Shown here: one piece after another, positions 52,036 through 55,027 of the stretch | How the letters are laid out: each line of letters opens with the position of its first letter | How positions within the stretch are numbered: the first letter of the stretch is position 1 | Source of the DNA: Opitutales bacterium | Lineage (GTDB): Bacteria; Verrucomicrobiota; Verrucomicrobiia; Opitutales; Opitutaceae | DNA length: 64,000 bases | Direction of reading: 5' to 3' | NCBI GenBank assembly: GCA_018700525.1 | Contig: JABITN010000171.1 | Coordinates: forward strand, 1 to 64,000 | Translations under genes and position numbers: made by a program | Notes under the pieces: model-generated | The model's database searches: none | What the model saw: only the letters and a program-made list of their open reading frames with translations | Told to the model about the DNA's origin: nothing

Positions 52036-52809
52036 ATGCCTTCTCAATCCTTTCGTTTCGCCATTCTCGCCTTATCCTTTGCTCTCGCGACCTCCAACGT
52101 CTTGGCAACGAGCAAAACCGCTCTGAAACCCTTGCTAGCCCAGCCCGACGCCATCGTATTGGAAAGCTCATTTTCAAAACCCGCTCCGCTTGCTAAAGGT
52201 GTTTGGCAGCAACGCCAACACACACGCTGGGCGATCAAAGACGGCATCCTGCTCGGTATCCCTTCTACCGACGAATACCAGAAGTCCCGAGGAGATCACC
52301 AAGGATTCGAGCCACGCGTCAGCGTTCCCGCTACGCCCGCCGAATGCATCGCTCAGTTTTCCGTTCGATTCTCGGGTGGCGAGGAAACACCCATCGCTCC
52401 CTTCGTCGAAATCGGTCATCATGTAGCGCGTGTCAAATTCAGCGAAAACGGCGTATTTCTGATAGCGGATGGTGAATCCGTCAAAGTAGCCGAGGCCAAA
52501 AACTTCAAATACATTCAGGGGAAATGGTACCACATTCTCGCCGAACTGAAAAGCGATGAATTCGTCATGCAATTCACAGACGGCCCCACTCTCTACGCAA
52601 GACACCCATCATTCGCCAAACCAGTAAAAAGCGGCGGCAACGGACTTGGTATCACTGGACCCAAGGGCGGAACTGTCGAAATCGATAACCTCACTCTCTG
52701 GAGCATTAAGCCCAAAGAACGCTCTACTTGGGCCAAGACACGCTCTGCGTTTCCTCATTTCAAACCCGTCATTCTGAAGAAAAAAAAGCCAGCTAAAGCG
52801 ACGCAATAA
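52036..52809 (+). CDS. Exported DUF1080/LamG-like protein (family 16 glycosidase-like fold)
   Basis: 257 aa with a signal peptide (FRFAILALSFALATSNVLA). The mature protein follows the concanavalin-like layout of DUF1080/3-keto-disaccharide hydrolase-type proteins: RWAIKDGILLGIP, CIAQFSVRFSGGEETPIAPF, GKWYHILAELKSDEFVMQFT, LGITGPKGGTVEIDNLTLW. Such proteins are frequent in Planctomycetes and Verrucomicrobia and bind or cleave carbohydrate; without a clear catalytic motif I cannot call it an enzyme. It has a basic C-terminal tail (KKKKPAK). Monocistronic. Confidence 0.7.
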   Translation: MPSQSFRFAILALSFALATSNVLATSKTALKPLLAQPDAIVLESSFSKPAPLAKGVWQQRQHTRWAIKDGILLGIPSTDEYQKSRGDHQGFEPRVSVPATPAECIAQFSVRFSGGEETPIAPFVEIGHHVARVKFSENGVFLIADGESVKVAEAKNFKYIQGKWYHILAELKSDEFVMQFTDGPTLYARHPSFAKPVKSGGNGLGITGPKGGTVEIDNLTLWSIKPKERSTWAKTRSAFPHFKPVILKKKKPAKATQ

Positions 52810-53160
52810 TTCAGTATCTATTCAATTTCGATGTAGGGCTGGCACTTGTGCCACGCAGTGTAGTTAGAGAATTTTTTGTATCGCGGCACGGCGCAAGCGC
52901 CGGCCCTAAACTGCCTTATTTAACTGTCTCGCAGAGAATTTGATAACCACTGACGATTTAACCCAGTTCAAAAGCATCAGCGTTCATCAGTGTCCTCAGC
53001 GGTCAAAAAAATCTAGTGTACTGTTTTCCAGCCACTCACTACACCAGTACGACAAATCAAAAGAGCCTCATTTCTTTCCCCGAATGGCACGCCAGAATTA
53101 TCATTACCGCTTAAGCACCTTGACAAGCGGGTCGATACACATACTCGTTTTAGCAGCTCA
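52810..53160. repeat. Intergenic region with family B element and CAGTG-type repeat
   Basis: A family B element spans 52833-52908 (GTAGGGCTGGCACTTGTGCC to GCGCCGGCCCTA), alignable with 20006-20084. At about 52940-53012 lies a second repetitive-looking tract (AACCACTGACGA, CATCAGCGTTCATCAGTGTC, CTCAGCGGTCAAAAAAA). A consensus -35 hexamer TTGACA is at 53120-53125, 35 bases before the leuA leader ORF; the -10 is weak. Confidence 0.55.
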
Positions 53161-53223
53161 ATGAACTTTAGCGTCCTGTATTTCCTACGACTTACGAATT
53201 TTGACAGCCTCCTACTCGGTTAG
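53161..53223 (+). promoter_or_regulatory. Candidate Leu-rich leader peptide and structured leader of leuA
   Basis: A 20-codon ORF encodes MNFSVLYFLRLTNFDSLLLG, with six Leu including three in a row (CTC CTA CTC) before the TAG. The Leu codons lie in a hairpin (53203-53213 with 53222-53234). Downstream, GACGCAAT at 53236-53243 pairs exactly with ATTGCGTC at 53309-53316, enclosing another stem TTCTCG/CGAGAA. The arrangement resembles amino-acid attenuation, but there is no obvious U-run terminator and no Shine-Dalgarno before the ORF, so it is only a candidate. Confidence 0.4.
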
Positions 53224-53359
53224 GAAGGACTGTCGGACGCAATTTCTATTCTCGTGCTTTTCTGATTGTTTGCGAGAAATCGGCCATAAGCCACGATAAA
53301 GCTTTTGTATTGCGTCAACAGGTTCGCCTAACTTTCGTTACTTTCAACCCGATACAAAC

Positions 53360-55027
53360 ATGCAAAAATCGCCTATAACCAAATATCGTCCTCATCCGGC
53401 CATCGAATTGCCGAACAGGCAATGGCCAGATCGCGTCATCGACACTGCTCCCATCTGGTGCAGCGTCGATCTACGAGATGGTAACCAGGCGCTCGCAATT
53501 CCAATGAGCGTCGAAGAGAAGGTCGAAATGTTCAATACACTGGTCAAAATCGGATTTAAGGAAATCGAAGTCGGCTTTCCCTCCGCATCGGATACGGAGT
53601 TCGCATTCTTACGTCGTCTCGTATCGGACAATTTGATACCCAATGACGTAACTATCCAAGTACTCGTACAATGCCGTGAACACTTGATTCGCCGTACATT
53701 CGAATCTATAGAAGGCATCAAGAACGCCATCGTACACATCTACAATTCGACAAATCCGCTTCAACGTAAAGTGGTCTTCGGCAAAGACAAAAAAGAGATC
53801 AGAGAAATCGCTGTAGCAGGCGCGCAATTGGTCAAAAAGTTGACTCCTAGCCTTCCCGGAACGAATGTTCGCCTCGAATACTCGCCAGAAAGTTTCAGCG
53901 ACACCGAATTGGAATTCTCACTCGAATGCTGTGAAGCTGTATCCGATGTTTGGGAACCTACTCCAGAGAATAAAATTATTTTAAATTTGCCCGCTACCGT
54001 CGAGCTATTCACGCCCAACGTACACGCCGACCAGATAGAATGGTTCTGCCGCAACCTTGCGCGTCGCGATAGCTCGACAATCAGCTTGCATACCCACAAC
54101 GACCGAGGCACCGGCGTCGCGGCAACCGAGCTTAGCCTCATGGCTGGAGCTGATCGCGTAGAAGGCACGCTTTTTGGAAATGGCGAACGTACCGGAAACC
54201 TGGACATCGTAACGGTCGCCCTCAACATGTACACGCAAGGGGTTCATCCCGAATTGGATTTTTCGGACTTGAACGGTATCCGCGACATGTACGAGCGCAC
54301 GACCCGCATGGAAGTCCATCCGCGCTGGCCCTACTCGGGCGATCTAGTATTCACCGCCTTCTCAGGCTCTCATCAGGACGCCATCAAAAAAGGCTTTGCA
54401 CAGCAACCGACCGAAGATAGAGACCTCTGGCAAGTTCCTTACTTACCGATCGATCCGGCAGATATGGGCCGCAGCTATCGAGCGATCATCCGTATCAATT
54501 CCCAATCCGGTAAAGGCGGCGTCGCCTACATAATGGAAAAAGAGTACGGCTACCAATTACCTAAAGAGATGCACAAGGAATTTGGGAAATCGGTGAACCG
54601 AGTAGCTGACAAAACAGGCGCGGAAATAACACCCGAAGGCGTCTACACGTGTTTTCAAAACGAATACATCGACATCAAGGAACCGATCGAATTGATCGAA
54701 TTCCGAAGCGAACGCATCGACGAGCGCACGGTTGAAGTATGGGTCGTCATTTCCCACAACGGAACGAATAAGAATCTGAGAGGAACGGGCAACGGACCTA
54801 TCGCTGCCTTTTTCAACGCTCTGAAAGAAATTGAAATCGAAGATTTCGAGCTACTCGCATACAGCGAACACTCGCTTGGTCGAGGCGCCGACTCCAAAGC
54901 GGTATCCTATATCCAACTAAAGAATACCGTCACAAGCACGGTTTGCTTTGGCGCCGGTATCGACACCAATATATCGCTAGCATCGATCCGAGGCGTCATC
55001 AGCGCTCTCAATCGATTGATGAAATGA
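53360..55027 (+). CDS. leuA: 2-isopropylmalate synthase
   Basis: 555 aa, the long LeuA type 2 form. It condenses acetyl-CoA with 2-oxoisovalerate, the first committed step of leucine synthesis. The catalytic barrel has SVDLRDGNQALAIPM (LRDGNQ at 38-43), EIEVGFPSASDTEF, the metal-binding SLHTHNDRGTG (His244, His246) and GTLFGNGERTGNLDIV. The C-terminal regulatory LeuA dimer domain (about 430-555) binds leucine for feedback inhibition (SEHSLGRGADSKAVSYIQL). No other leu genes are adjacent. A structured leader precedes it and a strong palindrome follows the stop. Confidence 0.96.
   Translation: MQKSPITKYRPHPAIELPNRQWPDRVIDTAPIWCSVDLRDGNQALAIPMSVEEKVEMFNTLVKIGFKEIEVGFPSASDTEFAFLRRLVSDNLIPNDVTIQVLVQCREHLIRRTFESIEGIKNAIVHIYNSTNPLQRKVVFGKDKKEIREIAVAGAQLVKKLTPSLPGTNVRLEYSPESFSDTELEFSLECCEAVSDVWEPTPENKIILNLPATVELFTPNVHADQIEWFCRNLARRDSSTISLHTHNDRGTGVAATELSLMAGADRVEGTLFGNGERTGNLDIVTVALNMYTQGVHPELDFSDLNGIRDMYERTTRMEVHPRWPYSGDLVFTAFSGSHQDAIKKGFAQQPTEDRDLWQVPYLPIDPADMGRSYRAIIRINSQSGKGGVAYIMEKEYGYQLPKEMHKEFGKSVNRVADKTGAEITPEGVYTCFQNEYIDIKEPIELIEFRSERIDERTVEVWVVISHNGTNKNLRGTGNGPIAAFFNALKEIEIEDFELLAYSEHSLGRGADSKAVSYIQLKNTVTSTVCFGAGIDTNISLASIRGVISALNRLMK

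Follow-up and report, generated by a model that had tools for sequence, protein, structure and literature searches.

In the leu operon attenuator of enterobacteria (Rfam Leu_leader), translation of a short Leu-rich ORF decides between alternative stems, and an intrinsic terminator lies at the end of the leader. For actinobacteria, a LEU element has been described in which the run of Leu codons pairs with the Shine-Dalgarno box, and a pseudoknot has been proposed (PMC1262725). Cysteine-rich upstream ORFs of mycobacteria have been proposed to act as attenuators in a setting where leaderless transcripts are common (PMC4633059). In the open-licence literature, where a subscription paper could be missed, we found no description of leucine attenuation or of a leuA leader in Verrucomicrobia or Opitutus.

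Here we analyzed a leader in DNA of an Opitutales bacterium (the window, a stretch of 64,000 nucleotides), in which a tiny Leu-rich ORF and a set of switchable stems most likely switch leuA, the gene of the first enzyme of leucine synthesis, on when leucine is short. The initial annotation had suggested leucine attenuation from a 20-codon ORF with six Leu and a TTGACA 35 bases upstream, with the caveat that no terminator was visible. These observations hold: translation of 53161-53223 (+) gives MNFSVLYFLRLTNFDSLLLG, with 20 codons and six Leu, the gap between the end of TTGACA and the ATG measures 35 nt (Table 1), and no intrinsic terminator-like site was found in 52700-53700, versus 1.0 expected in shuffles, which is consistent with control of translation and not of transcription. 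At 16 nt from TTGACA the sequence reads TACTCG, and TTGACA was absent from the + strand sigma-70 sites returned by a promoter scan of 52700-53700. Transcription is expected to start at about 53153-53156, a few bases 5′ of 53161, and the lack of a Shine-Dalgarno before the leader ORF fits such a near-leaderless start. By eye, no Shine-Dalgarno precedes leuA in the window, and its start codon seems to do without one. Rfam release 15 gave no match in the window at gathering thresholds, and none in 12 related loci at E 0.5.

Table 1. Positions of the leader features and of the controlled gene in the window.
Feature	Position	Strand	Remarks
TTGACA, probable -35 element	53120-53125	+	ORF starts 35-45 nt after TTGAC in the 97 family loci measured
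Leader ORF	53161-53223	+	20 codons, 6 Leu; stop TAG at 53221-53223; from translation, conserved frame and xRL core
seg1, GCGTCC, 5′ strand of P1, within the ORF	53171-53176	+	Pairs with 53235-53240; G-C/A-U exchange at outer pair between genera
Core, CTACGACTTAC, codons Leu-Arg-Leu-Thr	53185-53195	+	CGACTTA nearly invariant in family
Hairpin H1, GACAG (53203-53207) / CTGTC (53230-53234)	53203-53234	+	Predicted fold; 5′ arm contains Leu codons 17-19
seg3, GGACGCAAT	53235-53243	+	3′ strand of P1 (53235-53240) and 5′ strand of stem 3:4 (53236-53243)
Hairpin H2, TTCTCG / CGAGAA, in the 3:4 loop	53249-53278	+	92.9% of cells paired in 10 genus sequences
seg4, TTTGTATTGCGTC	53304-53316	+	Partner seg3 (via 53309-53316) or seg5 (via 53304-53312)
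seg5, CGATACAAA, directly 5′ of the leuA ATG	53350-53358	+	86.7% of cells paired with seg4 (10 sequences); own partners bind better
leuA, 2-isopropylmalate synthase, controlled gene	53360-55027	+	TIGR00970, 755 bits (cut-off 697)

The initial annotation had made its reading depend on conservation in relatives, and the comparison bears it out: the ORF, its distance from TTGACA, its frame and Leu content, P1 and H1 are kept in the genus and the family. The window's clade comprises 21 loci, 10 of the genus (one of the 11 genus genomes lacks a leuA match) and 11 of three sister genera, and the leader ORF is present in all of them. Each reaches a maximum of at least 4 Leu per 10 codons of an upstream ATG ORF, as compared with 9% of dinucleotide shuffles. 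The family survey covered 108 leuA upstream regions from 39 genera, with L032 (a second stretch of genome G008) and the pattern matches L035-L064 excluded from every count. CGACTTA lies 45-95 nt after TTGAC in 99 of the 108 loci, and 34 of the 39 genera have one or more members with this word. A start codon stands 34-46 nt after TTGAC in 97 of these 99, and the word is in frame with it in 96 of the 97, at 24, 27 or 33 nt, the sole out-of-frame locus having it at 20 nt; this count lost the nine loci without CGACTTA and two more without a start in range. When the ORF was found by its amino acids, a promoter-proximal ORF with an xRL motif was present in 101 of the 108 loci, a number from which leaders without [LFSI]RL are missing because this peptide served to find the ORF. 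Leaders poor in Leu are common elsewhere in the family, where only 20 of 87 loci attain a density of 4 Leu in 10 codons (shuffles, 4%).

The nearest genus with a name is Pelagicoccus (the naming is based on 80 of 546 loci), and the leader is present in Pelagicoccus mobilis, strain DG1235 and Puniceicoccaceae K14. In 10 of the 11 genus genomes, a covariance model of the clade's leaders gave a single strong match, which lies before leuA. Another 20 genomes gave 11 such matches, one in each searched member of the three sister genera and, as judged by position, each before leuA; the leaders of the other nine were not recognised. In a search for leader copies before other genes in the 31 genomes, whose first look scored 150 candidates per genome, the next matches only had E values of at least 0.099. 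An apparent insertion in the leuA gene of G008 proved to be a run of unknown bases. Conservation across these sequences confirms that the Leu-rich ORF before leuA is not a product of chance, and a conserved, translated leucine leader for leuA is almost certainly what they represent.

The region 53150-53360 folds mildly better than shuffles (z -1.78; 10 of 200 shuffles were equally good). P1 (GCGTCC/GGACGC; 53171-53176 with 53235-53240) encloses H1, and stem 3:4 is an exact 8-bp inverted repeat, GACGCAAT at 53236-53243 and ATTGCGTC at 53309-53316; because both use 53236-53240, P1 and 3:4 are mutually exclusive. Stem 4:5 spans the bases just before the leuA ATG. P1 and the complementarity of seg4 to these bases were both missing from the initial annotation, which had placed the Leu codons in a hairpin, as the predicted fold indeed does for the last of them in H1, and had pointed to the 8-bp stem and proposed a check for covariation in relatives. 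The 8-bp stem is exact in the window and present in the predicted fold, but its full length recurs only in L003 among the 10 genus sequences, the seventh pair being mismatched in the other eight. Within the genus this stem is conserved (88.5% paired in the 10 sequences), but its covariation is not above shuffles; stem 4:5 likewise shows no double change and no covariation above shuffles in these sequences.

P1 is paired in 88.0% of cells and H1 in 93.3% among the 21 clade sequences, the outer P1 pair being G-C in 6 sequences, A-U in another 6 and unpaired in 9. In an alignment of 25 other genera, H1 reaches 97.6%, its inner hairpin 94.4% and P1 64.0%; this alignment holds 25 of 29 one-per-genus sequences, L018 and L030 (shortened by the end rule) and L120 and L138 (long loops) having been dropped before the count. 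The P1/H1 covariation score was 0.125 versus 0.078 in the clade and 0.226 versus 0.162 in the other genera, and no shuffle out of 500 was as high in either, in a comparison where neither permutation nor shuffling removes the relatedness of the sequences. Pairs with double changes were not clearly above shuffles, 57 of 500 being as high in the other genera and 300 of 500 in the clade. Inside the clade, P1 is clear in 13 of 21 loci, compared with 5% of shuffles and 43% of swaps between genera; for 78 family loci outside it, the figures are 39 loci, 13% and 26%. Outside the clade, pairing and start-access calculations covered the 74 to 78 of 87 loci in which the pattern located the motif, the start or H1. 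Conservation of the frame, P1, H1 and the bases shared by the competing stems are all shown by the sequences.

For seg4 and seg5 in 21 loci, pairing with the own partner averaged -9.45 kcal/mol versus -6.63 with partners of other genera (permutation p 0.001), and on this comparison the 4:5 partners change together between genera; taken singly, the pairing of the seg4 region with the start region exceeds that of shuffles (p<0.05) in only 2 of 21 loci. Inspection by eye suggests that seg4 of the Pelagicoccus group pairs with the 3′ arm of H1 and not with seg3. The leader of L007 (genome G005) has partly lost both seg3 and seg4, and retains the ORF and seg1.

Based on these features, we infer leucine sensing, the direction of the switch, the formation of P1 before seg4 is made, and a translational output. 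Transcription would begin a few bases before 53161, and ribosomes would start the ORF on an almost leaderless end. With sufficient leucyl-tRNA, the ribosome would finish and leave, P1 would enclose H1 and seg3 would be occupied, in which state seg4 would pair with seg5 and the leuA start would be closed. When leucine is short, a ribosome stalled at the Leu codons would cover seg1 together with the 5′ part of H1, and seg3, freed by the stall, would capture seg4, opening the leuA start. We consider this mechanism as a whole, leucine attenuation from a near-leaderless ORF acting on access to the leuA start, to be reasonably probable.

To calculate start access, we used a model in which P1 and H1 are taken to form cotranscriptionally, ahead of the synthesis of seg4, and a stalled ribosome is given a footprint of about 30 nt. 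In the window, opening the leuA start costs 6.1 kcal/mol with P1/H1 formed and 1.2 with the ribosome stalled on a Leu codon. With P1/H1 preformed, stalling eases opening by more than 0.5 kcal/mol in 20 of the 21 clade loci, or in 19 if the start region is widened, and the mean gain falls from 2.06 to 0.36 when the DNA between P1 and the start is shuffled, the best of 15 shuffle rounds giving 0.92. Among single loci, only 5 of 21 exceed all 15 of their own shuffles, and stalling gives no gain in L007. Unconstrained equilibrium folding shows no clear direction in the clade (start easier on stalling in 10 of 21 loci, harder in 2), and for the window a slightly opposite one (1.02 to 1.54 when stalled). 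In the family outside the clade, the same kinetic calculation is reversed, the start being harder to open in 42 of 74 loci and easier in 7.

These calculations also bear on the possibility that the same leucine-sensing ORF acts by premature transcription termination, which in the window's clade would have to be Rho-dependent because no intrinsic terminator is found there. Translation-coupled Rho attenuation is a known alternative that works without terminators, and has been raised for cys leaders (PMC1262725). Moreover, in 80 family loci outside the clade a downstream hairpin bears some resemblance to a terminator (rank 6.5 of 20 on average, with rank 0 in 14 loci), so that different clades may use different outputs. 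In the window's clade, however, no such signal is seen in the 21 loci (rank 12.4 of 20 on average, with rank 0 in no locus) or in the window itself, and the pairing of the start region together with the effect of stalling on start access argues against a termination output, which we regard as unlikely.

The hallmark of the LEU element, an ORF core that pairs with the region of the leuA start, was rejected as a general mechanism: such pairing reached p<0.05 in none of the 21 clade loci and in only 10 of 78 others. In nine loci (L016, at -22 kcal/mol, L077, L105, L110, L111, L117, L122, L130 and L158) the core shows strong complementarity to the sequence immediately 5′ of the leuA start, perhaps reflecting a different output in those genera.

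Across the 101 xRL ORFs, Arg is encoded by CGA in all 101 and Leu by CTT in 98, an A follows in 99, and there is a variable third base in the preceding codon (A 26, T 58, G 4, C 13). Full leuA genes of the family outside the clade use CGA for 33 of 993 Arg codons and CTT for 40 of 1275 Leu codons; in the window's own 29 ORFs the two codons are not rare (13.1 and 16.2 per thousand). CGA-CTT-A is nearly invariant throughout the family, despite the rarity of both codons in high-GC relatives. One tentative idea, on which we would not insist, is that CGACUUA is a sequence-specific element in the leader ORF between two helices, kept at the nucleotide level as a recognition or programmed stall site. 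The leader would then be more than a run of Leu codons, with 2-3 of them sufficing in most of the family, and the near-invariance of the word permits a sharp mutational test of the cause of ribosome stalling. The complement of CGACTTA elsewhere in the leader shows no clear excess (mean 5.29 versus 5.28 shuffled, 80 loci); a score of at least 6 occurs in 16 of the 80 (20% versus 13% shuffled), and 12 of these 16 lie 12-22 nt before the leuA start. CGACTT may be complementary to 16S rRNA, a pairing that would leave the conserved A unexplained. In genome G058, nine contigs (C2-C10) share a 24-nt word that has two mismatches to our search pattern, probably a repeated element.

Conservation of CGACTTA beyond the need for its amino acids could also reflect an RNA element bound there by a protein or another ligand, with translation of the ORF being of little importance, and for the LEU element of actinobacteria Seliverstov et al. 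made the case for a protein (PMC1262725). Such binding is nonetheless improbable, given that the in-frame spacing in 96 of 97 loci and the Leu-rich ORFs without CGACTTA in other families both point to translation. The plan of a classic transcription attenuator is matched by the Leu codons, the alternative stems and the promoter-proximal ORF, but no terminator-like site was found in the window and no excess of such sites in the clade, and attenuation by an intrinsic terminator in the window is very improbable. A chance ORF with chance inverted repeats, with which the whole-leader z of only -1.78 would agree, is hardly credible in view of the conservation of frame, spacing, peptide and stems, which refutes it.

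Returning to leucine attenuation, we found upstream ATG ORFs with at least 4 Leu in 10 codons in 38 of 64 loci from other families of the order (shuffles, 10%; 26 without), in 4 of 13 from other orders of the class (12%) and in 4 of 10 from other classes of the phylum (14%), for example MNTTCPILGLLLLGLPLLLPLGE, MIARAQLLLLLAKLLP and MKNRFNSLELLLLAG; the order and phylum sets consist of genomes drawn evenly from larger groups, with part of the leuA places fetched. A TTGAC-type rule locates a promoter-proximal ATG ORF in 25 of the 64 order loci, and for the bases around the stop of the 38 Leu-rich ORFs of the order, the fold ranks at a median of 3.5 against 50 shuffles, with 13 of the 38 ranking at 2 or lower. 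The suggestion that Verrucomicrobiota use leucine attenuation is thus supported by comparison, the ORF, frame, Leu content, P1 and H1 being conserved and Leu-rich ORFs recurring in other families of the order. In other classes of the phylum, L313, L315 and L316 have related-looking ORFs before leuA (MKNEFNNLLLGLLLLAGNDP.. and MKNRFNSLELLLLAG). Leu-rich ORFs also precede the same leuA type in Chloroflexota (L239, L250, L262, L263 and L233), starting 253 to 403 nt upstream, such as MKLLLLLLLLLIVPYGHFDRSTRDML.

Compared with known systems, the leader has the general features of a ribosome-mediated attenuator, namely a conserved Leu-rich ORF before leuA (21 of 21 clade loci; xRL in 101 of 108 family loci) and mutually exclusive stems overlapping the ORF (P1 and 3:4 paired in 88.0% and 88.5% of cells), and is on these grounds predicted to work like a leucine attenuator. 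It is not classed as a terminator-type attenuator because the intrinsic terminator looked for was not found, nor as an actinobacterial LEU element because the defining pairing of the latter was not found in the window's clade. With the enterobacterial leu attenuator it shares the short Leu-rich ORF and the alternative stems, but it has neither the terminator nor a match in Rfam. Unlike the Cys ORFs of mycobacteria, it concerns another amino acid, other genes and another phylum, and competing stems were analyzed here. The comparison, based on 195 leuA upstream regions, would extend leucine attenuation to a phylum for which we found no prior description. Closest in design is the LEU element, which shares the Leu-rich ORF before leuA, alternative structures and a structure reaching the leuA initiation region, with no terminator described (PMC1262725). 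Here, in contrast, the start region is paired by seg4, and no Shine-Dalgarno is seen by eye before leuA, such that the leader appears to combine a near-leaderless ORF, the lack of a terminator and the control of a start codon seemingly without a Shine-Dalgarno.
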